DNA from: Segetibacter koreensis DSM 18137
GTDB taxonomy: Bacteria > Bacteroidota > Bacteroidia > Chitinophagales > Chitinophagaceae
Assembly: GCF_000374045.1 (NCBI RefSeq)
Contig: NZ_KB893321.1
Span: 14,466 to 78,465 of the forward strand
DNA: 64,000 bases
Direction: 5' to 3'
Shown piece by piece: positions 34,516 to 53,866 of the stretch (its first letter is position 1; each line of letters begins with the position of its first letter). Position numbers and translations under genes: made by a program. A model generated the notes under the pieces. That model made no database searches and was not told where the DNA came from. It was given only the letters and a program-made list of their open reading frames with translations.

Positions 34516-34603
34516 AAGTAGATGGTAGGGTGTAAAATATTAATGATATGCCTAGCAACAATCCGCCTTCATCTATACCTTAAACCTTTGACCTCATTTG
34601 ATT

Positions 34604-37448: not shown

Positions 37449-37474
37449 TAAACATCTTAAAAAACAATCCTAAT

Positions 37475-40400
37475 ATGAGGTATTTCAACCCCCTGAGACT
37501 GCTATTGTTGTGCCTGATAACAATTCAGATCTTCACATCTCCCTTATTTGCTCAAAACAAACTTGTAAAAGGCAAAGTTGTCGATTTAGCTTCCCAAAAT
37601 CCTGTGGCAGGAGCTACTGTTTCTGTAAAAAATAGCAGTAAAGCAACCTCCACCAACGAGTTTGGAGAATTTTCAATTAATGTTCCCGCTAACGCAGATT
37701 TGATAGTGAGCAACGTAGGTTTTGAAAATGCAACAGTAAAAGTGACTGGTAATTATTTGACCATTCAGATTTCATCCTCAACAACGCAGTTAAACGATGT
37801 TGTTGTTACTGCGCTTGGCATACGAAAAGAAACAAAAAGACTGGGATACTCGGTTCAGGAAGTAAAAGGTTCTGATTTGCTTAAAGCGAGAGAACCCAAT
37901 CCGGTCAATGGTCTGGCAGGCAAAGTAGCGGGTCTTAACGTTGGCGTAAACCAAGAATTGCTGTCTAATCCGACAGTATTGTTGCGTGGTTCTCCACTCA
38001 ATTTTTATGTTGTTGATGGTATTCCAATTAACTCCGACACCTGGAATATAAGCCCTGATGATATAGAGAGTTATACAGTGTTAAAAGGGCCTACAGCCGC
38101 CGCTTTATATGGAAGTCGGGGTATTAACGGCGCTATATTAATAACCACTAAAAGAGCCGCTAAGAACAAAAAAGGGTTTACTGTAGAGTTTAACACAAGC
38201 AACCAGTTTAACAGAGGCTTTATCGCTAATCCAAAAGTGCAGAATGAATATGGAGGCGGAGAAAAGCAGCAATATGCCTTCGGAGATTATAACAGTAATG
38301 GTAACTCTGTTGATGGTACTAATGACGAAGACTATGATGTGTGGGGGCCAAGACTTGATATCGGGCTGATGCTGCCGCAATATGATGGCAAGTATGATCC
38401 TACACAATATTTTACTTATAAATTTGGCGACGGATCTGTTCACCAGAGTCATATACAACCTACTCCATGGGTTTCGCGCGGAAAGAATAATCTGAATAAT
38501 TTTTTAAGGACCGGTTTTCTTACAAAAAATAATATCAATTTCTCAGCCCTTTCAGACCGTTCAAACCTGCGTATGTCTGTATCAAATTCCTACCAAACCG
38601 GCATTACGCCAAATACAAGTTTAAATACAGTCAATTTTAATGTTATTGAAAGTTATGATGTCAGTGATAAATTTAAGATCGAGGGCAATATCAATTACAA
38701 CAGGCAGTTTACACCAAATATTCCCGATGTAACGTATGGCCCAAACAGTATAATCTATGATGTTGACATTTGGACCGGTGCTGACTGGAACGTATTGGAC
38801 CCAAGTATCAGAAACATTTGGCAGCCCGGTAAAGAAGGTATACAATCGATGTTTGTTGAGTACAAGCGATACCAGAACCCATATTTTATGAGTTACGAAT
38901 GGCTGAGGGGACATTACAAAAATGACTTGTATGGCTGGCTGGCTTTTACCTATAGGTTTAATAAGAACCTGAGTATGTTGCTTCGTTCAAATGTGACAAC
39001 GTATAACGTATTAAGAACTGAAAAACAACCGTGGTCGGCGCATCCTTACGGCGATGAACACAATCACGGCAACTACCGCGAAGACCGCCGCGACCTTTGG
39101 GAAAACAACACCGAGCTATTATTAAGCTACAATAAGGAAAATCTGGGAAATTCAGGATTTTCGATTAACGCAAATGCAGGCGGAACCGGCCGTAACATGA
39201 AATATGGATCAAGCTATACCAGCACCAACCAACTGATTGTTCCCGAGGTTTATACTTTTGCAAACTCCTATTTGCCCGTCAGAGCTTATTCTTATGGCGC
39301 TAACCTTTTAATGCTTAGCGCTTACTATTCTGCCGATATTACCTATAAAAAATATTTCACTGTTTCCACTACAGGCCGTGTGGATAAAACTTCTGCGTTA
39401 CCATCTGGTCGCAATGCTTTTTTCTATCCTTCGGTATCATTGAGTTCAGTGATTTCTGATTATATCAATTTTCCAAAATTTATCTCTTTTCTTAAAATCA
39501 GAGGAAGTTTTGCCAATGTAAAAGACGGTGGTACATCTCCTTATATCGGTGCTTCGTTCCAATCACTGGGAGCAAGCAGCCCGGTTGGATATGGAAACAG
39601 TTACTACACTCCGTATGACGGGCCGGTATATAATCTTTCCAAACCATTTTATTCGACCGGATACACCTACAATAACCAAACGGGTGCTACAGCTCCAAAT
39701 TATTCAATAGATCAAAACATCAAACCCTCATCGCGCAGCAATTACGAGTTGGGCGGCGATATTCGCTTTCTCCATAACCGGTTAGGTATAAGTGCAACCT
39801 ACTTTCAATATAAAGACGGTCCCGCTATCTCTAACCAGTTCGTATCAGAAACCAGCGGTTTGAGTTATTTTACAACAAACGGAGCAACAACAAAAAGAAC
39901 AGGAGCCGAGCTGTCATTGCTGGGAACAGCCATCCAGACAAGGAACTTTAGCTGGAATATTTTAGCTAACTGGTCAACGTATAAAGAGGTATTTTCGGCA
40001 TTTGCAGGCGGAGCAAAAGAAGTATCTAATGGTACAGGATATCCGTACAAAATTGGCGATCGTGTAGATCAGCTGTATGCAAGTGTAGAAGCGAAAACGC
40101 CCGATGGCAAAGTGATTGTTGACGAATCTGGTTTCCCGATTTATTTGCCAAAAGCGCAGAAGTTTGGTCACAGCGACCCCAACTGGGCCTGGGGGGTTAA
40201 CAACAGGTTTAGCTACAAGTCTTTTAGTTTATCTTTTCAGTTTGATGGTATGGTTGGTGGAACAATCGGAGACTATGTGAAACGTAAACTTACAGAAGGC
40301 GGCCGGGGCGAAAATACCGTAACAGGTGTAATAGGACAAGCACGTTTGTATGAATCGCAGCACTGGGGCGATCCAGGGTATGAGGGAGCTGTTATAAATG

Positions 40401-40843
40401 GTGTACCTATAATGAGTGGCGACCAGGTGCAAGTGGTAGGGGGAGCAAGTAACATTGCTTATGACCCTGTCACAGGCGTCATTACAAATGGAAAGACTTT
40501 GCAGTTTACTCCAAACAAAACAGCTACCCATTGGATGCAGGATTACGTAAGTAGTTTTTACAACGATGCGGAACATACAAGTACGAGTAAAACTTACGCG
40601 AAACTCCGCGAAGTTGTATTCTCTTATTCTCTGCCTGCAAGACTGTTTCAAAAAAGCTTTATCAGCAAGATCGACGTTTCTGTCGTCGGGCGAAACCTTC
40701 TGTATTTCTTCCACAAGGGCTTTTATGATATTGATGTTGACCAATTTCCGGGAAGAACACAATTTAATGGCATCTCAAGAGAGCAGACATTGCAAACGCC
40801 AACGACCAGAAGTTATGGCTTTAATGTCAACGTAATGTTCTGA
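37475..40843 (+). CDS. SusC/RagA family transporter heading the phosphonate locus
   Basis: 1122 residues. Signal peptide (TSPLFAQ), carboxypeptidase-regulatory-like domain (~28-105), TonB-box-like DVVVTALGIRKE, plug (VVDGIPINSDTWN ... YTVLKGPTAAALYGSRGINGAI, split) and a long barrel ending in TRSYGFNVNVMF. It is an outer-membrane importer working with the SusD-like lipoprotein encoded 43 bases downstream. What sets it apart is the unbroken co-directional run into phosphonate catabolism genes (42.5-49.8 kb), suggesting that the ligand is a phosphonate-bearing molecule too large for porins, such as an aminoethylphosphonate-decorated lipid or glycan. That is inference from position. Confidence 0.94.
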   Translation: MRYFNPLRLLLLCLITIQIFTSPLFAQNKLVKGKVVDLASQNPVAGATVSVKNSSKATSTNEFGEFSINVPANADLIVSNVGFENATVKVTGNYLTIQISSSTTQLNDVVVTALGIRKETKRLGYSVQEVKGSDLLKAREPNPVNGLAGKVAGLNVGVNQELLSNPTVLLRGSPLNFYVVDGIPINSDTWNISPDDIESYTVLKGPTAAALYGSRGINGAILITTKRAAKNKKGFTVEFNTSNQFNRGFIANPKVQNEYGGGEKQQYAFGDYNSNGNSVDGTNDEDYDVWGPRLDIGLMLPQYDGKYDPTQYFTYKFGDGSVHQSHIQPTPWVSRGKNNLNNFLRTGFLTKNNINFSALSDRSNLRMSVSNSYQTGITPNTSLNTVNFNVIESYDVSDKFKIEGNINYNRQFTPNIPDVTYGPNSIIYDVDIWTGADWNVLDPSIRNIWQPGKEGIQSMFVEYKRYQNPYFMSYEWLRGHYKNDLYGWLAFTYRFNKNLSMLLRSNVTTYNVLRTEKQPWSAHPYGDEHNHGNYREDRRDLWENNTELLLSYNKENLGNSGFSINANAGGTGRNMKYGSSYTSTNQLIVPEVYTFANSYLPVRAYSYGANLLMLSAYYSADITYKKYFTVSTTGRVDKTSALPSGRNAFFYPSVSLSSVISDYINFPKFISFLKIRGSFANVKDGGTSPYIGASFQSLGASSPVGYGNSYYTPYDGPVYNLSKPFYSTGYTYNNQTGATAPNYSIDQNIKPSSRSNYELGGDIRFLHNRLGISATYFQYKDGPAISNQFVSETSGLSYFTTNGATTKRTGAELSLLGTAIQTRNFSWNILANWSTYKEVFSAFAGGAKEVSNGTGYPYKIGDRVDQLYASVEAKTPDGKVIVDESGFPIYLPKAQKFGHSDPNWAWGVNNRFSYKSFSLSFQFDGMVGGTIGDYVKRKLTEGGRGENTVTGVIGQARLYESQHWGDPGYEGAVINGVPIMSGDQVQVVGGASNIAYDPVTGVITNGKTLQFTPNKTATHWMQDYVSSFYNDAEHTSTSKTYAKLREVVFSYSLPARLFQKSFISKIDVSVVGRNLLYFFHKGFYDIDVDQFPGRTQFNGISREQTLQTPTTRSYGFNVNVMF

Positions 40844-40886
40844 TCATTTTTATTAAGTATTAAAATATTAAATAGTAGATATTTAT

Positions 40887-42479
40887 ATGAAATCTTTTAA
40901 AGTAGTTTTTATACAGGTAGTTGCAATCGTAGTGCTATGCACAGGCTGCTCCAAAAAATTTGAGGATTTTTCTCAAAATCCCAACCAGCCCATACCGGGC
41001 AAGGTTCCTCCGGGTATTTTGTTGAAATCTATACTAAATGACCTCGTTGTTTTTCCCGGCGGCGATGCAGACAAGCAATGCCAGTTCATTTGTTCTAATT
41101 ATGTCTATTATGGAAACAACCAGTATTGGAGTGGTAGCGCCGCGTTAAATTACGGTGATCTAAACAATACAATAGCTATGGAGTCTGAAGCAAGAAGGCT
41201 GGCAGGTTCTGACAATAATCCTTACCACGCGCTCGGCCTTTTCCTGCGTGCCTTTTACTTTGTTAATATGACAGAAAAAGTAGGAGATATTCCGATGACG
41301 GAGGCTTTGCAGGGACTTGCTAATACTACACCAAAATATGACAGCCAGAAAGATGTTTTCAAACAATCATTGCTTTGGCTTGATTCTGCAAATACATTGC
41401 TTGCTGATCAAATCAATAATGGCTTCCTCGAATTCTCAGGCGATTTCTATTATAACGAAAGAATAAACTCGCCATTATCACCCCGCGACGCATTGATCGA
41501 GTGGCAAAAAGTGGTAAATAGTTATAAACTCCGTGTGTTGATCGAATTAAGCAAGAGGACAGATGATGCTGAATTAAACATTCCGCAGCAATTTGCTAAT
41601 ATTTACAATCATCCTGATACCTACCCGATTTTCACCGGCATGGCCGATAACCTTCAATATGTTTACAACAGCACTTATAATTATTATCCCGACAATATCA
41701 CTAATCTTGGAAATAACCAGCTACGTTTAAATCTTGCAGCAACTTTGGAAACTACGCTTGGACAATTGCATGATCTGCGTTGTATGGTGTTGGGCGAACC
41801 TGCCCGAGGCCTAGGATTCAGCGATACTTCCTATCAGTCTTTTGTCGGCGCACCATCCGGTATGGATTTAAGTACTATGAATGCGCTAATCAATTCTGGT
41901 TTACTCGATTCTAAATTGTCATTATACAATAGGAATCACTTCTACTCAGGTCTGACTGGCGAGCCGACCTACATTCTTAGTTACCCCGAAGTGTGTTTTT
42001 GCATTGCAGAGGCGATGAACAGGGGTTGGATAACAGGAAATACCGAAGAATGGTATAAAAAAGGAACTACCGCTCAATTTTCTTTTTACGGAATAGTAGA
42101 TGGTGTTAACACGGTTATACTTCAGGCAGCATCGGGTAAAGAAACTCCTTATACTGTTCATTTTAGCTTTAATGATTATTTTAACCAGCCGGCAGTAAAG
42201 TATGCAGGTGATAATACTACCGGGTTAAGTCAAATTCTCCTGCAAAAATATTTGGCTTACGCACGAAATTCTGGTTACCAGGCTTATTATCAATGGCGTA
42301 GAACAGGAGTTCCGGTTTTCAATGCTGGTCCGGGAACAGGAAATGGTGGCGTAATTCCATTACGTTGGCAATATCCTACTAATGAAATAACAGCAAATGG
42401 CGAGAATCTAAAAGCGGCGTTGCAGAGCCAATACGGAGGTAGTGACGACATCAATGCCAAAATGTGGCTAATTAAGTAA
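40887..42479 (+). CDS. SusD/RagB family lipoprotein of the phosphonate locus
   Basis: 530 residues. A lipoprotein signal (IVVLCTGC) is followed by SKKFEDFSQNPNQP, the usual SusD N-terminus, TPR-like helices and the MTEKVGDIPMTEAL segment that corresponds to the conserved DVPY-type motif. The C-terminal part has an aromatic-rich surface (QAYYQWRRTGVPVF). It captures the ligand for the SusC encoded upstream. It ends 49 bases before the PhnZ-like gene with no terminator between, so co-transcription is likely. Confidence 0.92.
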   Translation: MKSFKVVFIQVVAIVVLCTGCSKKFEDFSQNPNQPIPGKVPPGILLKSILNDLVVFPGGDADKQCQFICSNYVYYGNNQYWSGSAALNYGDLNNTIAMESEARRLAGSDNNPYHALGLFLRAFYFVNMTEKVGDIPMTEALQGLANTTPKYDSQKDVFKQSLLWLDSANTLLADQINNGFLEFSGDFYYNERINSPLSPRDALIEWQKVVNSYKLRVLIELSKRTDDAELNIPQQFANIYNHPDTYPIFTGMADNLQYVYNSTYNYYPDNITNLGNNQLRLNLAATLETTLGQLHDLRCMVLGEPARGLGFSDTSYQSFVGAPSGMDLSTMNALINSGLLDSKLSLYNRNHFYSGLTGEPTYILSYPEVCFCIAEAMNRGWITGNTEEWYKKGTTAQFSFYGIVDGVNTVILQAASGKETPYTVHFSFNDYFNQPAVKYAGDNTTGLSQILLQKYLAYARNSGYQAYYQWRRTGVPVFNAGPGTGNGGVIPLRWQYPTNEITANGENLKAALQSQYGGSDDINAKMWLIK

Positions 42480-42528
42480 TTTTATTTACTTCGGCCTGTA
42501 AATTCAATTTTTGATCTAAAATATTCAT

Positions 42529-43122
42529 ATGCTTCAAAAAAAAGTCATACCTAAAGGGGCAGACGTTTCTGCAGAAATCAATGATTTATTTATTAAGTAT
42601 GGTGATGAAGACTACGACGGAGAACCTGTATCGCAGGCATCTCATATGATACAATGCGCAATGCTTGCCATGGGAGAAGGTGAGGTTGAACTGACGATCG
42701 GAGCTTTTTTACACGATATCGGCCATTTATTAAAACATAGGCAGGAAACTGAAGCGATGGGAAATTTCGGAGTAGTTAACCACGAAGGTATCGGAGCAGC
42801 TTATCTCCGTGAAAGAGGATTTTCAGATAGAATATGTGCGGTTGTAGCTAATCATGTAAATGCTAAGCGGTACCTGGTTGCTACAGATAAGACTTATGCG
42901 GAAAAGTTATCACCTGCAAGTCAGGAAACCTTAAAGTGGCAGGGCGGTCCTATGACAGACAAAGAGGTGAAAGCTTTTAGAAACCACTCATTTTTTGACG
43001 ATATCATTAAAGTGAGATTGTGGGATGAAAAAGCTAAAGACACTCAAGTAAAAATGTTGCCTTTGAGTTATTTTATAAATCTCATCGCTAACTATTTAAA
43101 AAGTAGAAAAGAAACAGAATAA
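42529..43122 (+). CDS. phnZ: PhnZ-like HD-domain mixed-valent di-iron oxygenase
   Basis: 197 residues. PhnZ cleaves (R)-1-hydroxy-2-aminoethylphosphonate with O2 to glycine and phosphate. The metal ligands recalled for PhnZ align with constant offsets: H39, H62-D63, H85, H109 and D166, with H66 in the HD motif as well. The substrate-site pair Tyr and Glu of PhnZ matches Y29 and E32 (DYDGE), and the lysine after the HxxxK pattern is K113. Segments such as AYLRERGF and QGGPM are shared with PhnZ. The usual hydroxylase partner PhnY* (Fe/2-oxoglutarate) is not in the window. It is the first catabolic gene after SusD. A different HD-oxygenase substrate is possible but less likely given these residues. 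Confidence 0.85.
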   Translation: MLQKKVIPKGADVSAEINDLFIKYGDEDYDGEPVSQASHMIQCAMLAMGEGEVELTIGAFLHDIGHLLKHRQETEAMGNFGVVNHEGIGAAYLRERGFSDRICAVVANHVNAKRYLVATDKTYAEKLSPASQETLKWQGGPMTDKEVKAFRNHSFFDDIIKVRLWDEKAKDTQVKMLPLSYFINLIANYLKSRKETE

Positions 43123-43206
43123 CAGTTATAATTATTCGGCAGTCAAAGCGACTTAAAATATCATTTAACAAAATAAAACCCTTAAAGTACACTTAAGAAC
43201 CTTTCA

Positions 43207-44445
43207 ATGAATATTTCTAACAATCCATTTTCAGCAAATGGAATAAATTACTCTCCCGCAGAAAAACCTATAGTTGTCATTTGTATTGACGGCAGTGCGG
43301 ATGAATATCTTGATACAACGATGGCTTTTGATCGCATGCCCAATTTAAAGAAAATGGCAACAAGCGGGTATCGAGGAATGGTCCGCGGAGCATTACCTTC
43401 TTTTACCAATGTGAATAATTCTTCAATCGTAACAGGCGTTTCTCCGGCTGTCCATGGTATCAGTGGAAATTTCTTTTATGATGCTGACAAAGACCAGGAG
43501 GTAATGATGAATTCTGCAGAGTACTTGCGTGCAGAGACTTTGCTTGCAGCAGCTTCTAACGCAGGAAGAAAAGTGGCCGTAGTAACTGCCAAAGAAAAAC
43601 TTCGCGATATTCTTTCGCATAAAATGAAAGGCATAGCTTTCTCTGCAGAAAAGGCAAACCAGGCAAAAAGAGAAACACACGGCATAGACAATGTGGAGGA
43701 AGTAACAGGTCATAAAACCCCAGCCATTTATAGCGGAGATGCAAGCTTGTTTGTACTGAGGGCAGGCATAGCATTAATAGAAAAAGGATTAGCAGATTTT
43801 CTGTATCTTTCTCTTACTGATTACATGCAACACACCTATTCCCCGGAAGCAGAGGAATCTCTTGCTTTTTACGAGGCAATGGATACAGAAATAGGCAAGC
43901 TTTTGCAACTTGGCGCTATTGTAGGAGCAACGGCAGATCATGGCATGAATTCAAAAATAAAACCTGATGGATCGCCTAATGTGTTGTTTGTTGAAGACAT
44001 GCTTGAAGAAAAGTTCGGAAATGGTTTTCGCGTTATTTGCCCCATTACAGATCCTTACGTAAAGCATCATGGGGCTCTGGGTTCTTACGTAGTTGTGCAT
44101 ATAAACGATAAATCTATTATTAATGACGTAAAGAATTGGCTGGCCATACAGCCGGGCATCACAGAAGTACATGATAAAGTAACTGCGACGCGTTTATTGG
44201 AACAACCCGAAGATCGTACCGGAGATCTCGTGGTTTTATCAGCAAGGGATGTTGTTGTAGGTCGAAGGCCGCAATACCATGATCTGTCCGCGCTGGATAG
44301 CACTCTACGGTCGCATGGAGGCCGCTATGAAGAAATGGTTCCTATGATCATTTCCCATCCTTTAAATGCTGCTTATAAAATAAAAGCAGCGGCAGACCCA
44401 CGCAACTTCGACATTTTTGATTTCACTATAAATGGAACAAATTAA
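43207..44445 (+). CDS. phnA: Phosphonoacetate hydrolase
   Basis: 412 residues, alkaline phosphatase superfamily. It hydrolyses the C-P bond of phosphonoacetate to acetate and phosphate using two zinc ions. Expected ligands are seen: D28 (CIDGS), nucleophile T67 (SFTNVNN), D205 and H209 (LTDYMQH), D244-H245 (TADHGM) and H370 (LRSHGG). HGISGNFFYD is also characteristic. There is no signal peptide, so it acts in the cytoplasm, unlike the exported phosphatase-fold enzymes at 49.8 and 52.6 kb. It lies 84 bases after phnZ and 11 before phnY, the enzyme that makes its substrate. Confidence 0.93.
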   Translation: MNISNNPFSANGINYSPAEKPIVVICIDGSADEYLDTTMAFDRMPNLKKMATSGYRGMVRGALPSFTNVNNSSIVTGVSPAVHGISGNFFYDADKDQEVMMNSAEYLRAETLLAAASNAGRKVAVVTAKEKLRDILSHKMKGIAFSAEKANQAKRETHGIDNVEEVTGHKTPAIYSGDASLFVLRAGIALIEKGLADFLYLSLTDYMQHTYSPEAEESLAFYEAMDTEIGKLLQLGAIVGATADHGMNSKIKPDGSPNVLFVEDMLEEKFGNGFRVICPITDPYVKHHGALGSYVVVHINDKSIINDVKNWLAIQPGITEVHDKVTATRLLEQPEDRTGDLVVLSARDVVVGRRPQYHDLSALDSTLRSHGGRYEEMVPMIISHPLNAAYKIKAAADPRNFDIFDFTINGTN

Positions 44446-44456
44446 TTTATAAAAAT

Positions 44457-45932
44457 ATGGACGTACAAGAGAAAACAATTGATGTGGCCGGCGCTGCAGC
44501 GAGTCAAAGTGAATCTGCACTGCATTTACATTGCTATGTAGCAGGTAAAGGCGTAGATACATCAAAATATTTGTCTGTTCATAGCCCTTATGATAACAGG
44601 CTTGTTGGAACTGTAGCGTTGGCGGGAATTAAAGAAACGAACGAAGCAATTGAAGCCGCATTGGAGGGAGGAAAAACATTAAGCCGTTATGAACGATACA
44701 CCGTTCTTGATAAAACACGGCAGCTGTTAATGAAGCGAAAAGAGGAAATCGCTCAGCTGATAAGTGCAGAATCGGGATTATGCATTCGGGAGGGCAGATA
44801 CGAGATTGGTCGTGCACACGACGTGTTGCTGTTTGCCGCTATGGAATGTTTAAAAGATGATGGGCAAGTCTTTTCATGCGATATTTCTCCAACAGGTAAA
44901 ACAAGAAAAATATTTACGGTGCGTGAGCCACTAAAACTTGCTGTTGCTATCACGCCTTTTAATCATCCGCTTAACCAGGTGGCACATAAGATAGCTCCAG
45001 CAATTGCATCAGGAACGCCGGTGATTTTGAAACCCTCCGAAAAAACTCCACTTACTGCCATACGTTTAACCGAAATGCTTTATGAAGCAGGGTTGCCTCC
45101 ATACATGCTGAGCGTACTGCTTGGTCCTACCACAGAAGTGGCAGAGCAATTGTTAAAAGACGACCGCATAGAGCTTGTTTCATTTACAGGAAGTGTGCCG
45201 GTAGGTAAAAAAATAGCCCAGACGGCAGGATATAAAAAAGTAATCCTTGAACTAGGCGGTAATGATCCATTAATCATCCTTGAGGATGCAGATTTAGAGC
45301 TTGCTGTAACATTAGCCGCGGAAGGATCTTTCAGAAATTCGGGGCAACGTTGTACTGCGGTAAAACGGATACTGGTACAGGAAAGCATACGTGAAGAATT
45401 TACCAAACGTTTTGTCGAAAAGGCAAAAGAATACACGTGCGGTGATCCGTCAGATCCTGACACGAGAGTGGGAACCGTAATAGATGAGCGGGCTGCCGTT
45501 TATCTTGAAGAAGTAACAAAAAAAGCCGTTTCCCAGGGGGCGAAAATATTGCTGGGCGGAAAGCGAACCGGCGCTTTAATGGAACCGACAGTTATCGCAG
45601 ATGTACCGAGAGATGCACAAATGATAGTGCAGGAATCATTCGGACCATTAGCTCCGATATTAGGTTTTAAAGATATAGATGATGCTATCAGTTTATCAAA
45701 TTCTACCGCATACGGTTTGTCATCGGGTATTGTTACCAATAATATGCAAAATGCTATTCGATTTATAAAAGAATTGAAAGTGGGAACAGTAAACATTAAT
45801 GAAGTTCCGGGGTATCGTATCGAGAATTCTCCTTTCGGCGGAATAAAAGACTCCGGCTTAGGTATCAAAGAAGGAGTGATCGAAGCAATGAAATGTTTCA
45901 GTTTTGTAAAGACATTTTCAATGCCGTGGTAA
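44457..45932 (+). CDS. phnY: Phosphonoacetaldehyde dehydrogenase
   Basis: 491 residues, aldehyde dehydrogenase superfamily. It oxidises phosphonoacetaldehyde to phosphonoacetate with NAD+. Catalytic N169 (TPFNH), E265 (ILELGGND) and C299 (NSGQRCTAVKR) are present, plus the FTGSVPVGKKI nucleotide-binding region and the ESFGPLAPI segment. By sequence alone it is a general aldehyde dehydrogenase; the specific name rests on its place between phnA (11 bases upstream) and the later phnW. This is PhnY of the PhnW-PhnY-PhnA pathway, not the unrelated dioxygenase PhnY*. Confidence 0.88.
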   Translation: MDVQEKTIDVAGAAASQSESALHLHCYVAGKGVDTSKYLSVHSPYDNRLVGTVALAGIKETNEAIEAALEGGKTLSRYERYTVLDKTRQLLMKRKEEIAQLISAESGLCIREGRYEIGRAHDVLLFAAMECLKDDGQVFSCDISPTGKTRKIFTVREPLKLAVAITPFNHPLNQVAHKIAPAIASGTPVILKPSEKTPLTAIRLTEMLYEAGLPPYMLSVLLGPTTEVAEQLLKDDRIELVSFTGSVPVGKKIAQTAGYKKVILELGGNDPLIILEDADLELAVTLAAEGSFRNSGQRCTAVKRILVQESIREEFTKRFVEKAKEYTCGDPSDPDTRVGTVIDERAAVYLEEVTKKAVSQGAKILLGGKRTGALMEPTVIADVPRDAQMIVQESFGPLAPILGFKDIDDAISLSNSTAYGLSSGIVTNNMQNAIRFIKELKVGTVNINEVPGYRIENSPFGGIKDSGLGIKEGVIEAMKCFSFVKTFSMPW

Positions 45933-46052
45933 TCGAAACAGCGTCGCTATTAAAATACATACAAGAAGTATAGTGCGGATGTAATCGACATTCTTTTATC
46001 ACTTTTGTTTTTTTGGGTTTCCTTTCAAAAAATATATTCTACCGTAAATAAT

Positions 46053-47285
46053 ATGCCGCATATTGAGGAAAGAAGTGATGTTGTAGTTGTGGGAGGTGGC
46101 ATTTTTGGTAATGCCATTGCTTATTATTATACACGTGATAATCCAGGTAAAAAAATTGTTGTTCTTGAAAGAAATGAACTCTGTAATGCTGCTACTAGCC
46201 GCGCTGCTGCTTTAATTACAAAAGTCAGAGCTAAAAAACATTTCGTTGCCTTATCACTTGAAACGTACAAGGTAATCCCTGAAATGGAGCGGCAATTGGG
46301 CGAAAGTATGGATGTAAAATACGTTGGAGTTATGCACGTCGCGGCAAGTGAACCAAGTGTAACAGCTTTGGAAGAATTGATGAAAGTGGCCGAAGAATTT
46401 GATCAGCCTGCATACTACATCAGCAATGATGAAGCACATAAGAAATCGCCATGGCTAAAAGCCGATGACGCCGAAAAAATTGCTTTTATGCCGGGTGAGG
46501 CCTATTGTGATCCTTATCTTTTGGGAACTTTTTTCTCGCGCTGTGCGAGGCTTCAGGGTGCAGACATCAGGCAAGGTATCGAAGCAACAGAAGTAGTCAT
46601 GGATGGTGATACTGCAGTCGGAGTTGAAACGACACAAGGTGTAATTTATGCAGATGCAGTCGTCATTGCAGCAGGGGCATGGTCGCCGGTATTAGCTGCG
46701 CGGGCAGGAATTGGATTGCCGATGGCGCCCGTGCGAAGCCAATATTGGATAACTGAACGAAATGCTATTTTTCCTGTCAACTCGCCTATTGTTTTAATAC
46801 CTGATGCACAAACCTATGCAAGACCGGAAGGAGGCGGCCTGTTATTTGGGATCCGCGAGTCAAAGTCATTTAGCGTTTCACCAAAACAAATTCCTAATGA
46901 CATCAGTCATTTTTGTTTCAGCCCTGATAAAGGAATGACAGACCTGTCGGAAATGATTGATCAACTTGCACGCTTTTTTCCAAAAGCCCATGACATTGGT
47001 TTAAAACATTATATAGCCGGATTTTCCGGATATACGCCTGACAATAATCTTTCTATGGGTAGAGCCCCGGGAAAAAACAATCTGCTGCTGGCAACAGGTT
47101 GTGCAGGTGCAGGCATATCAGTTTCCGGTGGGGTAGGTTTAGCCTTTGCAGAAATGGCAGCAGGAAGAGATAATCCCTTTAATTTTTCTTATTTTAATAT
47201 AAATCGTTTTGGGTCAATAGATCCGTTTTCTAAGGAATGGTTGCAAAAATGCGCATCGGCCAGATCGAATAAGAAAAGTGGGTAG
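46053..47285 (+). CDS. FAD-dependent amine oxidoreductase (DAO family) of the phosphonate cluster
   Basis: 410 residues from ATG 46053. The Rossmann motif VVVVGGGIFGNAIAYYY (~9-25) and VLERNELCNAATSRAAALI place it in the glycine/sarcosine oxidase-like DAO fold. The C-terminal NLLLATGCAGAGISVSGGVG is the usual FAD-contact end. There is no signal peptide. FAD oxidoreductases recur in phosphonate clusters, and related enzymes are reported to demethylate N-methyl-2-aminoethylphosphonate to AEP, which would feed PhnW; that role is inferred here. A 120-base gap precedes it, and the transporter gene follows after 75 bases. An extension to TTG 46005 adds 16 residues unlike the family. Confidence 0.82.
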   Translation: MPHIEERSDVVVVGGGIFGNAIAYYYTRDNPGKKIVVLERNELCNAATSRAAALITKVRAKKHFVALSLETYKVIPEMERQLGESMDVKYVGVMHVAASEPSVTALEELMKVAEEFDQPAYYISNDEAHKKSPWLKADDAEKIAFMPGEAYCDPYLLGTFFSRCARLQGADIRQGIEATEVVMDGDTAVGVETTQGVIYADAVVIAAGAWSPVLAARAGIGLPMAPVRSQYWITERNAIFPVNSPIVLIPDAQTYARPEGGGLLFGIRESKSFSVSPKQIPNDISHFCFSPDKGMTDLSEMIDQLARFFPKAHDIGLKHYIAGFSGYTPDNNLSMGRAPGKNNLLLATGCAGAGISVSGGVGLAFAEMAAGRDNPFNFSYFNINRFGSIDPFSKEWLQKCASARSNKKSG

Positions 47286-47360
47286 TGAAGGATGATTTCC
47301 TGTTGTATAAATAGCCCTCTAATGCTATAAAATGTACTTCATCAATTAATTATCAGAAGC

Positions 47361-48671
47361 ATGAATAAGGTTCAACAAGTACTTCTGCGTTCAAAAAGCA
47401 TTTTCATTGTCTGGAGCATGATTGCTGCTTTTGGTACTTACTTCTGCATGTATGCTTTTCGAAAGCCCTTTAATGCAGGTACGTACCCCGGTCATGAATT
47501 AGGACACATTGACTACAAGGCTGTTTTAATAGTTGCCCAGGTAATCGGATATATGTTATCAAAATTTATTGGCATTAAAGTCATTTCGGAGCTTAAACCA
47601 TCGAGGCGGAAATCGTTAATCATCGGTCTTATTCTTTTTGCCGAAATCGCTTTACTATTATTTGGTCTGATACCACCACCTTACAATTTTATTTGTTTGT
47701 TTTTAAATGGACTGCCATTAGGAATGGTTTGGGGAGTTGTATTCAGCTATCTTGAAGGCCGTCGTTTTACTGAAGTACTGGGCATGGGCCTTAGTATCAG
47801 TTTGATCATTTCTTCCGGATTTCTTAAAACCATTTACTTTTATATTCATGCTTTGGTGCCTTCAATAAGCGAGTTTTGGATGCCTTTTGTAATGGGATTA
47901 CTATTTCTGCCACTCTTTTTATTTTTTGTGTGGATGCTTTCAGTAATTCCTGCGCCTAATCAGGAAGATATTGGATTGCGTAAAGAACGTTTGCCAATGA
48001 CGAGCCAGGACAAAGGAAAGGTTATCAGCCAATTTGGAAGTGCCCTTTTTGTCCTCATCATTGTGTATACCTTTCTCACAATGCTAAGGGATTTTCGAGA
48101 TAATTTTTCTGTTGAGATTTGGAACGAGATGGATCCGGCATGGAATAAAGATGTTTTTGCACAAACAGAGACGATGGTGGGTTTAATTGTATTAATTGTA
48201 ATAGCTTGCCTATCAGCAATCAAAAGTAAGGCGGTTGGTTTTTGGTTTACTATGCTTTTAATATTTATAGGTGTCGCGTTAAGTGGCGTTTCAACTTTGT
48301 GCTTTCAGCTTCATTGGATAACGCCTTTTTACTGGATGCTTTTATTAGGCGTGGGTTTATTTTTCGCTTACATTCCTATACAAATTGTTTTATTTGAAAG
48401 AATGATAGCACTGTTTAGTATTAAAGCAAATGCGGGTTTCTTTGTTTACATGTGCGATTCGATAGGGTACCTCGGGAGTGTAGGATTGCTTTTTTATAAG
48501 GAGTTTTTTGTAAAAAGTATGAAGTGGACAAAAGTTTTAATGCAATTTTCCTACCTGTTATCTGTTGTTTCGATGATACTGTTGATATTATCTGCTTTCT
48601 TATTTTATAAACAATATTACCTAATTGCACAAAATGCCTCAAAGATCAAACCAGCGGTGCAGGTAGTATAA
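47361..48671 (+). CDS. DUF5690 family MFS-like transporter, candidate aminoethylphosphonate permease
   Basis: 436 residues with about 12 predicted TM helices. The start AAFGTYFCMYAFRKPFNAG is the hallmark of DUF5690, a Bacteroidota MFS-like family; loop motifs such as GLPLGMVWGVVFSYLEGRR support an MFS fold. Between the FAD oxidoreductase and phnW (15 bases downstream), it is the only inner-membrane transporter in the phosphonate cluster, so it is the best candidate to carry AEP, N-alkyl-AEP or phosphonoacetate into the cytoplasm. Substrate specificity is inferred only from position. No PhnCDE or PhnSTUV ABC importer is present. Confidence 0.8.
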   Translation: MNKVQQVLLRSKSIFIVWSMIAAFGTYFCMYAFRKPFNAGTYPGHELGHIDYKAVLIVAQVIGYMLSKFIGIKVISELKPSRRKSLIIGLILFAEIALLLFGLIPPPYNFICLFLNGLPLGMVWGVVFSYLEGRRFTEVLGMGLSISLIISSGFLKTIYFYIHALVPSISEFWMPFVMGLLFLPLFLFFVWMLSVIPAPNQEDIGLRKERLPMTSQDKGKVISQFGSALFVLIIVYTFLTMLRDFRDNFSVEIWNEMDPAWNKDVFAQTETMVGLIVLIVIACLSAIKSKAVGFWFTMLLIFIGVALSGVSTLCFQLHWITPFYWMLLLGVGLFFAYIPIQIVLFERMIALFSIKANAGFFVYMCDSIGYLGSVGLLFYKEFFVKSMKWTKVLMQFSYLLSVVSMILLILSAFLFYKQYYLIAQNASKIKPAVQVV

Positions 48672-48686
48672 TGACAATGTAATAGA

Positions 48687-49823
48687 ATGATCATGCAAAC
48701 AAAAAAAATACTTTTTACCCCCGGGCCACTAACAACTTCTAAAACAGTAAAAGAAGCGATGCTCGAAGATATGGGATCGAGAGACGCTGCCTTTATAACA
48801 GCAGTAAAGGAGATCAGAACAGAGTTATTACGACTCGCGCATGTATCGAAAGAAGAAGGCTATGAATGTGTGATTGTACAAGGCTCTGGTACTTTCGGAA
48901 TAGAATCAGTTATAAGCAGTGCAACAGGAAAGGATGATGTACTATTGGTGTTAGCGAATGGAGCTTATGGAGAACGCATAGTAAGTATGGCAGCTATTCA
49001 TAAGTTAAATCACCAGGTTTTGCGATTTAGTGAAGATGAGATTGTAAGCCCGGAAGCTGTACAACAATATTTAAAAGAGCATCCGGAAGTAACAAAAATA
49101 GCATGTATTCATAGTGAAACCACTACAGGCTTATTCAATCCGATTTTTGAAATTGGCCTTGTTTGTAAACAACACAATGCCGTATTCATTGTTGACGCTA
49201 TGAGCAGTTTTGGAGGTGTAGAAATGGATATGAAGCAGATGAATATCGATTTTCTTGTTTCCTCTTCAAATAAATGTATTGAAGGTGTACCAGGTTTTGC
49301 ATTTGCTTTGTGCAAAAGGCAAGAGCTGGAAAAGGCCAAAGGACAGGCAAGAACGCTAAGTTTAGACCTGTATGCGCAATGGGAAGGATTGGAGAAAAAC
49401 GGCCAGTTTAGATTTACTCCGCCTACACTTAGTATAATGGCTTTTTTGCAGGCATTGAAAGAATTAAGGGAAGAAGGCGGAGTTGAGGCACGTGAACAAC
49501 GATATAAAAAAAATAAAGAAATTTTAGACGAAGGTCTCCTCGATATTGGTTTTAAACATTATTTGGCGCCGGACATTCAAGGTCACATCATCACTTCCTA
49601 CCTTTATCCCCAAGATCCTAAATTTAATTTTGACCGCTTTTACAATAAGCTAAATGATCTCGGTTTTATCATTTATCCGGGCAAGTTAAGCAAAGCAGAT
49701 GCTTTTAGAATCGGAAATATCGGCCAGATTTTTCCAGCTGATGTCCATGATTTGATAAAAGCCATAAAAGCGGTTTTAGCAGAAGAAAATATTATGATAA
49801 AAGAACATTCATTAAATGCCTGA
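48687..49823 (+). CDS. phnW: 2-aminoethylphosphonate--pyruvate transaminase
   Basis: 378 residues, class V aminotransferase fold. It converts 2-aminoethylphosphonate and pyruvate to phosphonoacetaldehyde and alanine. The N-terminal ILFTPGPLTTS and MGSRDAAF are the family signature. VQGSGTFGIE binds the cofactor phosphate, D170 (FIVDAMSSFGG) contacts the pyridine nitrogen, and K196 (SSSNKCIEGVPGF) is the Schiff-base lysine. No phosphonatase PhnX gene is nearby, so the product must go to PhnY and PhnA, both encoded upstream. A second Met two codons in (48693) is an alternative start. The gap to the next gene is 22 bases. Confidence 0.94.
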   Translation: MIMQTKKILFTPGPLTTSKTVKEAMLEDMGSRDAAFITAVKEIRTELLRLAHVSKEEGYECVIVQGSGTFGIESVISSATGKDDVLLVLANGAYGERIVSMAAIHKLNHQVLRFSEDEIVSPEAVQQYLKEHPEVTKIACIHSETTTGLFNPIFEIGLVCKQHNAVFIVDAMSSFGGVEMDMKQMNIDFLVSSSNKCIEGVPGFAFALCKRQELEKAKGQARTLSLDLYAQWEGLEKNGQFRFTPPTLSIMAFLQALKELREEGGVEAREQRYKKNKEILDEGLLDIGFKHYLAPDIQGHIITSYLYPQDPKFNFDRFYNKLNDLGFIIYPGKLSKADAFRIGNIGQIFPADVHDLIKAIKAVLAEENIMIKEHSLNA

Positions 49824-49845
49824 AAGCCCACACTCTTAAAACACC

Positions 49846-52554
49846 ATGAATAAAATCCCCCATATCTTTTTTTTCTTTCTTTTTGTTTACTCTTCGGCAA
49901 ATGTGTTTTCTCAAAGAGAAGTGAAAGTACTGACGGTACCTGCGCACATAGCTTACACACATATTGATAAAGATGGTAAAACTGTTTTACCTAGCGGACG
50001 GTATCTAACACCTGCCGGGCAAACGATACAGATAACACACGATCCGTTCGGAATGGCAGTTTCACCCGACGGCACAAAAACGGTTACACTCCATAACGGT
50101 GTCTTTACTATCATTAATAATTCAACGTTAGAAAATACAAGGGTTCCAAGTTATGACAATAGTATTCCTTCACCGTTATCGAAAGGTTCTTTTCTAGGTG
50201 TTGCTTTTTCTCCGGATTCTAAAACAGTTTACCTAAGCGGTGGAGACAATGGTGCAGTGATTATTTATGATATTGAAAAGTTACAACGATTAGACTCCAT
50301 TTCATTAAATGGTAAAATTGATACTACAGATTTTGAAGATAGCTTTACCTCGGATTTGTTGCTTAATGAAAATAATAATGAGTTGCTTGTTTTAGACAGG
50401 GGGAATTTCCGGTTAGTACGTATTGATTTAAATACAAAAAAGATAACCTCTTCGGTTAAAACCGGTCGTCAGCCTTTTGGCCTCGCCCTTAGTCCTGATC
50501 ATACAACAGCTTTTGTCGCAAATGTTGGTATGTATGATTATCCTCTTTTGGGAGGTCTTACAGAAAAAAATCAAGATAGTTTACGAATTCCTTTTCATCC
50601 TTACGGTGATAATACAAAAGAGTCAATAAGTGGATATAATTGGAATGGAGAGAATATACCCGGCCTGGGAAGTCCTTTAGCTCCAGAAGCAATGAGTGTA
50701 TATACTATTGACCTTGCTTCTAATAAAGTGATAGATAGATTTAAGCCCGGACATCAAATAGGGCAAATGGTAGAAGATGCAGAAGTTATAGGCGGGGCAA
50801 GCCCTAACTCAATAGCTGTAGGCAGTAAATATGCTTATGTAAGCAATGCAACAAACGATAACATTTCTGTTATTGATTATAAAAACCATAAGATTATTGG
50901 TCATATTCCTATAAAAACTGATAGGCGCATTGACCATTACCGTGGTACTTTGCCTTTTGGCATTGCATTAAGCAAAGATGAAAAAACTTTGTATGCAGCA
51001 CTGTTAGGTTTTAATGCTGTTGCAGTAATCGATTTGGAAAAAAAGGTTACCAAAGGTTTAATACCGACAGGGTGGGGGCCGGCAAGGGTACAATTAAGTA
51101 ACGATGAAAAGGAACTATATGTCATTACTTGCCGTGGTTATGGGGCAGGGCCGAATGGAGGTAAAGATTTTGTAGCACCTGTTCAGGGAACTTACATTGG
51201 AGATATTCAATTGGGAACATTTCAAAAAATACCAATGCCGGATAGACAGCAATTGGCAGCTTATACAAAGCAATCTATAGACAATACTTTTGTTCAGGTC
51301 CGCATGAAAGATGACGTAAAAAATCCATTGCCTCTTTTGCCAGCCGGAAGGAATACTCCTATAAAGTACGTGGTATATATTACCAAAGAAAACAGAAGCT
51401 ATGATGAAGTGTTGGGACAGTTAACATCAGGTAAAGGAGACTCGACACTTGCACGTTTTGGTGCAGGGGTAAATATAAATACTAAAACTGACACTGTAAG
51501 AAATGTAGATGTAGGGCCAAATCATTTAAAAGTAGCGAAGGAGTTTGCCTTCAGTGATAATTTTTATTGCGACAGTGATGCTTCTATTCACGGTCATCAT
51601 TGGATGATGGGAGTAATTCCCAATGAATGGGTAGAAGCAAATTCGAGTGTAGATAAAACTGCGAAAATATTTTCCAAAGCGCCAGGGCGTCGATATCCTG
51701 GCTCTACAGGCAGTATGGATCCGGAAGATTATGCGGAAAGAGGCGGCTTGTGGGAAGCTTTGGAGCGGAGCAAAGTATCTTTTTACAATTTCGGCGAAGC
51801 CAACGAAACAGCGCATGTCCGAGAAGAATGGATGGATACTGCAACAGGCGCTGCCCATGCAGTAATGGTGCCTATGCAAAAGGCTTTATGGTCAAGAACA
51901 AGTCATGATTATGCAGGATTTAACACCAATATTCCTGACCAGTTCCGTATGGATCAATTCGAAAGAAATTTTACAAAAATGTGGTTAAAAGGTAAATCAA
52001 AAATGCCACAACTTGTTACTATGCAGGTGCCCAATGATCACACAGCCTCGCCAAGACCAAACGACGGTTATCCCTATATTCACTCCTATGTTGCAGACAA
52101 TGACTTGGCTGTAGGAAGAATATTACATTTTCTTTCAAGAACTCCTTATTGGAAAAACATGCTGGTAATTATAACAGAAGATGATCCACAGGGCGGGGTA
52201 GATCATATAGATGCACACAGAAGTATTTTAATGATGGCAGGTCCTTATGTAAAAAGAGGATATACCTCTCATACTCATGCTAACTTCGGTTCAATTCTTA
52301 AAACTATTTACAATATTCTTGGCGTCCCTTATGTAAACCAGTATGATGCTACAGCTTCCCTGTTACAGGACTTTTTTACAAACAAGCCAGACTTTCGGCC
52401 TTATACTTTAGTAATGCCAAGTAAAAGTGTTTTTGATCCCGCTGAGGCAATGAAACGTTACAATAAAGATATTGATTGGAGAAAAATAATGAAAGGTCCT
52501 GAAATGGATGATGAAGATGAACTTCGTGAAAAGCATTACGCTCCGGCCAACTAA
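49846..52554 (+). CDS. Exported bifunctional YncE-like beta-propeller / phosphoesterase-family protein
   Basis: 902 residues. A signal peptide (ending NVFSQ) precedes a YncE-type seven-bladed propeller (~40-440) with repeats like FGMAVSPDGTKT, GVAFSPDSKTVYLSGG and FGLALSPDHTTAFVAN. A phosphoesterase domain of the acid phosphatase/phospholipase C type (PF04185-like, ~495-830) follows, with KENRSYDEVLGQ near its start, SIHGHHWMMG and ITEDDPQGGVDHIDAHR. Metal ligands of the alkaline phosphatase superfamily are thus present. It acts in the periplasm or at the surface. Following phnW by 22 bases, it may release phosphate or a phosphonate head group from the imported ligand; that is inference. Confidence 0.85.
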   Translation: MNKIPHIFFFFLFVYSSANVFSQREVKVLTVPAHIAYTHIDKDGKTVLPSGRYLTPAGQTIQITHDPFGMAVSPDGTKTVTLHNGVFTIINNSTLENTRVPSYDNSIPSPLSKGSFLGVAFSPDSKTVYLSGGDNGAVIIYDIEKLQRLDSISLNGKIDTTDFEDSFTSDLLLNENNNELLVLDRGNFRLVRIDLNTKKITSSVKTGRQPFGLALSPDHTTAFVANVGMYDYPLLGGLTEKNQDSLRIPFHPYGDNTKESISGYNWNGENIPGLGSPLAPEAMSVYTIDLASNKVIDRFKPGHQIGQMVEDAEVIGGASPNSIAVGSKYAYVSNATNDNISVIDYKNHKIIGHIPIKTDRRIDHYRGTLPFGIALSKDEKTLYAALLGFNAVAVIDLEKKVTKGLIPTGWGPARVQLSNDEKELYVITCRGYGAGPNGGKDFVAPVQGTYIGDIQLGTFQKIPMPDRQQLAAYTKQSIDNTFVQVRMKDDVKNPLPLLPAGRNTPIKYVVYITKENRSYDEVLGQLTSGKGDSTLARFGAGVNINTKTDTVRNVDVGPNHLKVAKEFAFSDNFYCDSDASIHGHHWMMGVIPNEWVEANSSVDKTAKIFSKAPGRRYPGSTGSMDPEDYAERGGLWEALERSKVSFYNFGEANETAHVREEWMDTATGAAHAVMVPMQKALWSRTSHDYAGFNTNIPDQFRMDQFERNFTKMWLKGKSKMPQLVTMQVPNDHTASPRPNDGYPYIHSYVADNDLAVGRILHFLSRTPYWKNMLVIITEDDPQGGVDHIDAHRSILMMAGPYVKRGYTSHTHANFGSILKTIYNILGVPYVNQYDATASLLQDFFTNKPDFRPYTLVMPSKSVFDPAEAMKRYNKDIDWRKIMKGPEMDDEDELREKHYAPAN

Positions 52555-52606
52555 ATAGGAAGTAACCAGTACTAATTTTTTCAAAAGGAAATCTCGTATT
52601 TTTTAT

Positions 52607-53866
52607 ATGAATAAATCTTTCAGCTGCATTTGTATATTATTGTGTTTTTCAAATTCATTATTATTTGCGCAGGGCAAACAAAAAAAAGTAGTTTTTATTA
52701 TAGCGGACGGTATACCTGCGGATGTGGTAGAAAGGGTTCATACTCCTAACATTGATCTCATTGCAAAAGAAGGTAAATATATGCGTGCCCATGTGGGAGG
52801 TGAAAAAGATGATTACTCTCAAACACCTACTATATCAGCGGTTGGATATAATAGCTTGCTGACCGGTACATGGGTCAACAAACACAATGTCTGGGATAAT
52901 GATATAAAAGAGCCAAATTATAATTATTGGAACATTTTTCGGTTTTTTAAGAAACAATATCCTGATAAAAAAACAGCCATTTTCTCAAGCTGGACGGATA
53001 ACAGAACCAAACTTATAGGTGATAGTGTTGCTGCTGCTGGAAACATTCATCCTGATTATCGTGCCGACGGTTATGAATTGGATACTATGAAGTTTCCGCA
53101 CGATGAGGAAAGCGACTACATGCACCAGATTGATGAAACCGTAACGAACGCAGCAAGTGATGCTATAAAAAACAAAGCGCCAGACCTGTCATGGGTTTAT
53201 CTTGAATATACAGACGATATGGGTCACAAGTATGGAGACAGCAAAAAGTTTTATAATGCTGTAAGTATTTTAGATACACAAATAGGTAAAATATGGCGTG
53301 CTGTACAATACAGAAGAAAACATTTTAATGAAGATTGGCTAATTGTCATTACAACAGACCACGGGCGTAATGAACAAACAGGTAAAGACCATGGCAGTCA
53401 AACGCAGCGGCAACGAAATACATGGATAGTAACTAATTATCACAATCTTAATAATTATGCTCAATACTATCGTCCTGGTATAGTTGATATAATGCCATCT
53501 ATTGCACGTTTTATGAATCTCAATATTCCATTAGAAAGAGCAAGAGAAATAGACGGCATTTCGTTAATAGGTAAAGTTTCGGTGGCAGATGTTCGGGTAA
53601 ATTATTTTCAAAATAACCTTGACATCACGTGGAAAGCATTGGAGAAGGAAGGAAAAGCAAAAATATGGGTTGCCATTACTAATCATTTTCGGGAAGGCAA
53701 ACCTGACAAGTACCTGTTGGTGGGAGAGGTGCCGGTCAGCAATGAGCAGATTACAATAGACGCGAGCAAACTAAAATCTTCCTTTTATAAAGTTGTTGTA
53801 GAAGGGCCCTTTAATACAGCCAATAAATGGTTTGTAACGGACGATAAACAAACGTTATCAAAATAA
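52607..53866 (+). CDS. Exported alkaline phosphatase/phosphodiesterase family protein
   Basis: 419 residues. The signal peptide ends LLFAQ. The alkaline phosphatase superfamily core has KKVVFIIADGIPAD (metal D), AVGYNSLLTGTW (nucleophile region, in place of the more usual TNP), YTDDMGHKYG (metal D and H), ITTDHGRNE (D-H pair) and KDHGSQTQ (last His). The pattern resembles nucleotide pyrophosphatase/phosphodiesterase-like enzymes, and the substrate is unknown. It is 52 bases after the phosphoesterase gene and is the last gene of the co-directional phosphonate run. A C-terminal beta-rich domain (~320-415) may bind substrate. Confidence 0.85.
   Translation: MNKSFSCICILLCFSNSLLFAQGKQKKVVFIIADGIPADVVERVHTPNIDLIAKEGKYMRAHVGGEKDDYSQTPTISAVGYNSLLTGTWVNKHNVWDNDIKEPNYNYWNIFRFFKKQYPDKKTAIFSSWTDNRTKLIGDSVAAAGNIHPDYRADGYELDTMKFPHDEESDYMHQIDETVTNAASDAIKNKAPDLSWVYLEYTDDMGHKYGDSKKFYNAVSILDTQIGKIWRAVQYRRKHFNEDWLIVITTDHGRNEQTGKDHGSQTQRQRNTWIVTNYHNLNNYAQYYRPGIVDIMPSIARFMNLNIPLERAREIDGISLIGKVSVADVRVNYFQNNLDITWKALEKEGKAKIWVAITNHFREGKPDKYLLVGEVPVSNEQITIDASKLKSSFYKVVVEGPFNTANKWFVTDDKQTLSK

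Follow-up and report, generated by a model that had tools for sequence, protein, structure and literature searches.

SusC/SusD (SusCD) systems are textbook glycan importers: in Sus-type polysaccharide utilisation loci (PULs), a TonB-dependent SusC and a SusD lipoprotein head a row of catabolic genes. In the PusCD phosphate utilisation systems (PUS) of Flavobacterium, SusCD pairs are encoded together with phosphoesterases, and the available part of the same study mentions, in one clause, phosphonate-degrading enzymes beside SusCDs induced by low phosphate (Lidbury et al. 2021, PMC8115612). Here we describe a locus of Segetibacter koreensis DSM 18137 (Chitinophagaceae) in which a SusCD pair heads a row of phosphonate genes. 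It lies in a 64,000-nucleotide stretch of contig NZ_KB893321.1 (assembly GCF_000374045.1, positions 14,466–78,465, forward strand), which we call the window and to which all coordinates refer.

Gene clusters for phosphonate breakdown have been described as well. PhnW, PhnY and PhnA are encoded together in phnWYA clusters, and PhnZ was present in 24 of the 75 phnWAY clusters surveyed (Zangelmi et al. 2021, PMC8154272); phnY-phnA genes in Bacteroidetes were noted in 2025 (PMC12366243). The flavin adenine dinucleotide (FAD)-dependent oxidoreductases PbfB, PbfC and PbfD recur in clusters for 2-aminoethylphosphonate (AEP); PbfC and PbfD convert N-methyl-AEP to phosphonoacetaldehyde, and PbfD1 carries the TIGR03364 annotation (Zangelmi et al. 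2023, PMC10590968). AEP transport has been attributed to AepXVW, AepP and AepSTU (Murphy et al. 2021, PMC8316502).

The locus resembles each of these in part. With PUS it shares a SusCD pair co-located with organophosphorus enzymes, and with the phnWYA clusters it shares PhnW, PhnY, PhnA and a PhnZ homologue. Unlike a PUL, it carries phosphonate enzymes and no carbohydrate-active enzyme: no Pfam glycoside hydrolase or lyase family matched any of the ten cluster proteins at E 0.001. Unlike the PusCD systems, as far as the available text describes them, it comes from a different bacterial family and belongs to a whole clade with full C–P (carbon–phosphorus)-cleaving modules and DUF5690; PusD1 and PusD2 are PF07980/PF14322 proteins, whereas the window SusD is PF12771, a family that may occur among the other four PusDs. 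The published phnWYA clusters lack an outer-membrane SusCD, the word "TonB" being absent from the available text of PMC8154272 and PMC12366243; neither "SusC" nor "TonB" occurs in that of PMC10590968, and the FAD enzyme of the window, unlike PbfD, falls below the TIGR03364 cut-off. As in the AepXVW, AepP and AepSTU systems, an AEP transport step would be included, but the DUF5690 protein proposed for it belongs to a family of unknown function with a predicted fold of the major facilitator superfamily (MFS) type, named in no paper of the open-licence literature searched.

A preliminary description of this DNA had called a dedicated phosphonate SusCD new. This was overstated, since the general idea is already contained in the available text of PMC8115612. 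What stands is the dedicated lineage: beyond that one clause, the open-licence literature (preprints excluded) yielded nothing on a SusCD clade tied to phosphonates. The kind of system is therefore known in outline, and a SusCD clade with complete C–P-cleaving modules, a marker arginine and DUF5690 as membrane partner is unreported in that literature.

Gene content of the locus

The locus comprises ten co-directional genes on the + strand (37475–53866), each with its open reading frame (ORF) present.

37475–40843, + strand: SusC-type TonB-dependent outer-membrane transporter (TIGR04056, plug and CarboxypepD_reg_2 domains)
40887–42479, + strand: SusD-like_2 surface lipoprotein of the phosphonate-linked SusD clade, with R280 (PF12771, LTGC lipobox, tree)
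42529–43122, + strand: PhnZ-like HD-domain oxygenase (TIGR03276, 196 bits against a cut-off of 215; PhnZ structure 4n71)
43207–44445, + strand: PhnA phosphonoacetate hydrolase (TIGR02335, 500 bits; 1ei6)
44457–45932, + strand: PhnY phosphonoacetaldehyde dehydrogenase (TIGR03250, 672 bits)
46005–47285, + strand: FAD-dependent amine oxidoreductase, probably starting at ATG 46053 (PF01266, 193 bits)
47361–48671, + strand: DUF5690 membrane protein, candidate inner-membrane aminophosphonate permease (PF18943, 513 bits)
48687–49823, + strand: PhnW 2-aminoethylphosphonate:pyruvate transaminase (TIGR02326, 471 bits; NF010006, 489 bits)
49846–52554, + strand: exported enzyme of the phospholipase C/acid phosphatase superfamily (PF04185) that also matches beta-propeller families (family matches, signal peptide)
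52607–53866, + strand: exported NPP-like PF01663 phosphodiesterase-superfamily enzyme (PF01663, NPP structures at 6e-7, signal peptide)
36702–37474, + strand: region upstream of SusC with a small NIPSNAP-like ORF (36935–37230)

The gaps between the ten genes measure, in order, 43, 49, 84, 11, 72, 75, 15, 22 and 52 bp, and none of them holds a terminator-like site on the + strand. All six + strand sites are intragenic, and the total for both strands (16 found, 15.4 expected) is what chance would give. The preliminary description, which had reported a SusCD pair followed by phosphonate genes on one strand with small gaps (11–84 bp) and no terminator, was thus accurate on this point. A scan for sigma-70-type promoters came out near chance level (58 vs 51.6). 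A Bacteroidota promoter pattern, applied strictly, was not matched upstream of SusC; relaxed, it matched once, at 37421. Repeats in the locus, among the largest families listed, are limited to imperfect matches no longer than about 30 bases. The G+C content is 37–43%, vs 33–41% elsewhere in the window, so that base composition gives no strong sign of recent arrival in the near-complete host genome of 6.1 Mb.

The SusC protein exceeds the cut-offs of TIGR04056 (413 vs 368 bits) and TIGR04057 (51.5 vs 46.2 bits); its open frame has an alternative start, TTG at 37421. SusD exceeds that of PF12771 (192 vs 27 bits), matches the solved SusD homologue 3mx3 at 1e-46 and carries an LTGC lipobox, read by eye. 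By these family matches the pair has the makeup of a SusCD outer-membrane complex, a SusC/RagA transporter with an adjoining SusD-fold lipoprotein.

Three further proteins reach the level of their equivalogs, namely PhnA (TIGR02335, 500 vs 408 bits), PhnY (TIGR03250, 672 vs 636 bits) and PhnW (TIGR02326, 471 vs 401 bits; NF010006, 489 bits). Together they are predicted to form the hydrolytic AEP pathway phnWYA. PhnA aligns with 1ei6 at 6e-110, and both contain the motifs DG, TN, TDYxQH, TADHGMN and RSHGG, whose roles in the enzyme we presume. The HD protein scores just below the cut-off of TIGR03276 (PhnZ/Phn-HD; 196.4 vs 214.6 bits). Its best phmmer alignment is with PhnZ structures (4n71, 8e-41; TmpB, 8e-27), covering residues 19–192 of the 197 and preserving the metal-site residues. 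Among them, Y29, E32, H39, H62, D63, H85, H109 and D166 are invariant in nine aligned proteins and presumably serve a di-iron site.

The FAD protein matches PF01266 (193 bits) and reaches no equivalog, the best scoring 112 bits vs a cut-off of 257. By TIGR03364 it is not PbfD (57.6 vs 285.1 bits), nor does the host genome contain a PbfD at E 1e-60. Its closest solved relative is dimethylglycine dehydrogenase (2e-30), and we infer a role like that of PbfB, PbfC or PbfD. Both last enzymes have an N-terminal Sec-type signal whose final residues, read by eye, are SQ or AQ, and the PF01663 enzyme matches NPP structures at 6e-7.

Association of the SusCD lineage with phosphonate genes

Conserved adjacency of this SusC/SusD lineage with phn genes had been set beforehand as one of the tests of the idea. 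In the SusD-first sample we studied 112 neighbourhoods chosen for holding a relative of the window SusD: 106 of at least 148 matches listed besides the window, and 6 of 10 matches outside the family. The unsampled matches include partial, contig-cut ones of high identity (G203:C13, G043:C425, G193:C43, G206:C235, G178:C47) and many below 36%, and the SusD-first counts omit loci found via PhnA alone. A core marker had to lie on the same strand within 10.5 kb; the set comprised PhnA, PhnY, PhnW, PhnZ, PhnX-like proteins, PbfD (TIGR03364) and the window-type FAD enzyme. The marker thresholds, this reach and the 15-kb reach used below were chosen for this analysis.

At 42% SusD identity or more, 47 of 57 loci carry a core phn gene (42 of the 48 in which at least 4 kb downstream is present). 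The share falls to 9/23 at 36–42% and to 2/32 below 36%. The difference between high and low identity has a Fisher P of 7e-13, uncorrected for relatedness. Among 20 SusD loci of ordinary type (PF07980) in the same genome, taken from 36 matches, none is phn-linked. These comparisons indicate co-occurrence beyond chance. Outside the family, a PhnZ-like gene lies in reach in five of six loci, L252 being without a core marker; across the phylum, a SusD match at E 1e-60 was found in 18 of 395 genomes, 8 of which belong to the family and 10 to other parts of the class.

The PhnA-first sample held 41 loci, five of them from other phyla and one of a phylum not given, several on short contigs. In 13 of the 41, SusC and SusD belong to the phnA-phnY row, either right beside phnA or a few genes upstream; examples come from Chitinophaga, Paraflavitalea, Ilyomonas, Limnovirga and Ferruginibacter. 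From both starting points, then, the predicted adjacency held. The locus is nevertheless patchy, since three congeneric genomes were all negative for PhnA at E 1e-30 and for SusD matches at E 1e-40. In a phnA locus of Parapedobacter (L060:4927-9956) there is no adjoining SusCD; a PC-type phospholipase C, an HpnZ-like alcohol dehydrogenase and a GlpT-like carrier are found instead.

The 57 closest SusD-first loci contain 39 PhnZ, 30 PhnX-like, 30 PbfD and five PhnA genes. With PhnA in only five, phnA is dispensable to the association. Marker genes in relatives' loci are separated by a median of 12 bp (n = 240), and the most frequent row after SusD is a PF01663 enzyme, PhnZ, PhnX-like, DUF5690 and PbfD. 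Four of the PhnX-like proteins score 182–206 bits on TIGR03351, vs a cut-off of 219. Phosphoesterase-type genes recur, lying within 6 kb of 46 of the 57 close SusDs; the other 11 have none, some of these loci being contig-cut. For the recurrent PF01663 protein of 358 residues, no solved relative was found at E 0.01. Three phosphonate SusCD loci also contain a second, non-Sus TonB-dependent receptor (L054:6336-8582, L129:10484-12553, L154:14371-16395).

A tree of 124 SusD rows (two of 126 were left out as shorter than 430 aa) places the window SusD in a clade of 76 rows, four of them identical repeats, with an SH-aLRT support of 96 by a quick method. Behind these 76 SusDs lie phn genes without (48) or with phnA (15), a phosphodiesterase gene or DUF5690 only (6), a phospholipase C gene (1) or none of these (3), three loci being contig-cut. 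The clade holds 63 of the 70 phn-linked rows. On the tree, the phnA label needs seven changes vs a mean of 18 after shuffling (0 of 500 shuffles as low). Behind related SusCDs, PhnA-type back ends and those of the PhnZ/PhnX-like/PbfD type appear to have been exchanged, and the clade suggests a branch of SusCD pairs devoted to phosphonates. A third, distant SusCD lineage (L203, L208) is followed by a weakly metallo-beta-lactamase-like protein, a PF01663 enzyme, PhnX-like, DUF5690 and PbfD.

In deeper branches the phosphorus theme widens. Below 36% identity, SusD adjoins NPP-type genes in 12 of 32 loci and PC-type phospholipase C genes in 8; at 36–42%, a tyrosine-phosphatase-family gene lies beside 7 of 23 (blastp). 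GDPD genes occur in five loci. Counting phn or phosphoesterase-type neighbours together, 93 of 112 SusD loci are phosphorus-linked vs none of the 20 controls, and for this reason the SusD lineage looks like an organophosphorus branch in which phosphonates are the speciality of the 76-row clade. In L182, L183, L185, L186, L188–L192 and L210–L212, SusCD adjoins an exported PF01663 enzyme of NPP type, akin to the last gene of the window, and in L163, L184, L193, L195–L198, L201 and L202 a relative of PC-type phospholipase C (query PF04185 plus PF05506). A sister SusCD group (L170–L174, L176–L179, L181) has PF13350 tyrosine-phosphatase-family genes after SusD in L172 and L177.

Arginine 280, DUF5690 and the upstream regulator

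Of the 70 phn-labelled SusDs, 68 have arginine at the alignment column of position 280 of the window SusD (R280); the exceptions, L203 and L208 of the distant third lineage, have Glu. It is found in none of the 12 SusDs with NPP neighbours and in one of nine with phospholipase C neighbours (L163, itself in the clade). Among rows with no marker beyond a phosphodiesterase-type gene or DUF5690, seven of eight carry it, as do 4 of 21 markerless rows (L125, L162, L169 and L204, the last a distant SusD). In the sister group of the clade, the ten rows of one fully supported branch (L170–L174, L176–L179, L181), several of them with a tyrosine-phosphatase-family gene, lack the arginine, and the eleventh row, L252, has it. 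Since the residue has seldom changed across the tree, its tracking of phn genes amounts to few independent events. That R280 contacts the phosphonate is a guess.

The DUF5690 protein far exceeds its PF18943 cut-off (513 vs 25 bits). In the family, 111 of 244 genomes hold 124 DUF5690 genes; PbfD or a strong PhnA is present in 89 genomes, every one of which has DUF5690. Within 15 kb, DUF5690 accompanies 79 of 81 PbfD genes and 8 of 16 strong PhnA genes. A SusD relative lies within the same distance of at least 57 of the 81 and at least 7 of the 16 (window included); for 24 PbfD and 9 PhnA genes, some close to a contig end, there is no SusD neighbour among the matches listed. Human G6PT and Escherichia coli GlpT are organophosphate antiporters. 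In a Foldseek search with the predicted DUF5690 model (pLDDT 87.6), SLC37A4/G6PT and GlpT took ranks 1–4, 6 and 7 (TM 0.64–0.67), with NorA at rank 5 and other MFS carriers close in score. An invariant RKxF in helix 1 resembles the RKNF of GlpT helix 1, which we regard as a lead only. Judged by linkage and predicted fold, DUF5690 is the best candidate for the inner-membrane aminophosphonate step.

Of the 58 phn-linked SusD-first loci, 23 have a helix-turn-helix (HTH)-cupin regulator (HTH_3 plus Cupin_2; weakly PuuR-like, 43 vs 211 bits) as the gene immediately upstream of SusC. In five loci that lack a SusCD match (L048, L052, L056, L068, L071), the regulator immediately precedes PhnA. Its position before SusC in some loci and before PhnA in others suggests that SusCD and PhnA loci may belong to one regulon. 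In the window, the spot of the relatives' regulator is occupied by the NIPSNAP-like ORF at 36935–37230 (20.0 bits vs a cut-off of 22.3).

Elsewhere in the window, a second SusC/SusD pair lies at 8895–17158; its SusD (12055–13644) is mainly PF12741 (414 bits), an FG-GAP/ASPIC-UnbV protein follows the pair, and no phosphonate or phosphoesterase-type gene adjoins the pair. A sigma-54-type response regulator and a histidine kinase (33157–35947 and 28059–32769) adjoin an HlyD-type protein and, by eye, an ABC ATPase and an FtsX-like permease. At 55306–56262, a colicin-V-production membrane domain is fused to a CAP domain in one protein.

Proposed route and competing explanations

We give a probability of about 0.72 to the reading that the locus serves phosphonate utilisation from the outer membrane to the cytoplasm. 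SusD and the TonB-energised SusC would capture and import a phosphonate-bearing ligand, SusD binding it; the preliminary description had suggested a phosphonolipid or phosphonoglycan, which is conceivable. The exported enzymes of the alkaline phosphatase superfamily may then release the head group (AEP or its N-methyl or 1-hydroxy form) from an ester, and DUF5690 would carry it across the inner membrane. The PhnW-PhnY-PhnA and PhnZ reactions are known for these families. In the cytoplasm, phosphonoacetaldehyde would be formed by PhnW from AEP and by the FAD oxidoreductase, probably from N-methyl-AEP; PhnY and PhnA would convert it to acetate and phosphate, and the PhnZ-like oxygenase would turn 1-hydroxy-AEP into glycine and phosphate. 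Co-regulation of susCD with the phn genes would be expected.

A number of observations weigh against this reading. Ten of the 57 close loci lack a core phn gene: four are contig-cut (L114, L119, L120, L149), L134, L138 and L143 have a phosphodiesterase-type gene without a phn gene, L144 has DUF5690 and the HTH-cupin regulator, L162 has no marker, and L125 has none in 6 kb. Seven of the 70 phn rows (L027, L042, L043, L044, L175, L203, L208) fall outside the 76-row clade, and the phn-or-not label needs 12 changes on the SusD tree, which implies more than one origin or loss of the linkage. The recurrent phosphoesterase-type genes belong mostly to another PF01663 subgroup than the two exported enzymes of the window, which stand outside the subgroup typical of relatives. 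One row (L063) ends with a glycoside hydrolase family 2 (GH2) gene, which would fit a glycan. R280 was chosen after the fact from 104 conserved columns, and the AlphaFold2 model of SusD (pLDDT 54, 14 sequences) was too poor for a pocket analysis. For DUF5690, 34 of the 124 genes have no PbfD, PhnA or SusD among the matches listed within 15 kb; profile comparison gave no kinship to the OPA family (GlpT, UhpT, G6PT), with an hhalign probability of 0.2 vs five OPA-type proteins and no match to a PDB profile. By tblastn, the window contains no copy of the HTH-cupin regulator. The genes and their order, the SusCD–phosphonate linkage, the clade-marking arginine and the DUF5690 linkage are direct observations, and the account as a whole is built on comparison of genomes.

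The least probable alternative, to which we give very little weight, is that SusCD imports a glycan while the phn genes hitch-hike in a shared mobile or hot-spot region. The absence of PhnA and SusD matches from all three congeneric genomes, the exchanged back ends and the GH2 gene of L063 would suit it, but the window cluster has no glycoside hydrolase match, the linkage is kept across the five genera named above with gaps of a median of 12 bp, and none of the 20 control SusD loci shows it. Somewhat less improbable, though still unlikely, is that SusCD is a high-affinity port for free AEP or another small phosphonate and that the substrates of the exported enzymes are unrelated phosphate esters. 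A weakly PuuR-like regulator and PhnW fit the sensing of a small molecule, and in 11 of the 57 close loci, some of them contig-cut, the 6 kb around SusD contain no phosphoesterase-type gene; such genes do, however, accompany the large majority of close SusDs, and free AEP is small enough to pass through porins.

The strongest competitor is a general organophosphorus scavenger of the PUS type, whose SusCD would import phosphodiesters (lipid head groups, nucleic acids) with phosphonate as one outlet among several. It draws on the NPP-type, phospholipase C and tyrosine-phosphatase-family neighbours of the deeper branches, on the phosphorus-linked genes near most of the 112 loci, GDPD included, and on the expression data in the available part of Lidbury et al. 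2021 (PMC8115612). Within the clade, however, what acts in the cytoplasm are phosphonate enzymes, whose genes go together with R280; we consider the scavenger a minority view.

A dedicated phosphonate locus remains the reading we prefer. A bolder version, which we put forward tentatively and with more doubt than belief, is that a separate SusCD lineage in Chitinophagaceae and other families of the class evolved for surface polymers or lipids that bear phosphonate, such as lipophosphonoglycan or phosphonolipids from soil amoebae and other protists; R280 would recognise the phosphonate, DUF5690 would be the missing aminophosphonate carrier, and back ends would be swapped behind a constant front. 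The parts of the literature available report lipophosphonoglycan in Acanthamoeba (PMC3964302) and AEP and N-methyl-AEP as modifications of protist and invertebrate glycans (PMC6994554). With these reports, and with N-methyl-AEP oxidised by PbfC and PbfD, glycans and lipids of protists become plausible as ligands, no more.

If the preferred reading is true, a phosphonate-devoted clade would add a nutrient class to the SusCD systems. It would also provide Bacteroidota with a route into the reduced-phosphorus cycle without known AEP transporters, and DUF5690 with a candidate function.

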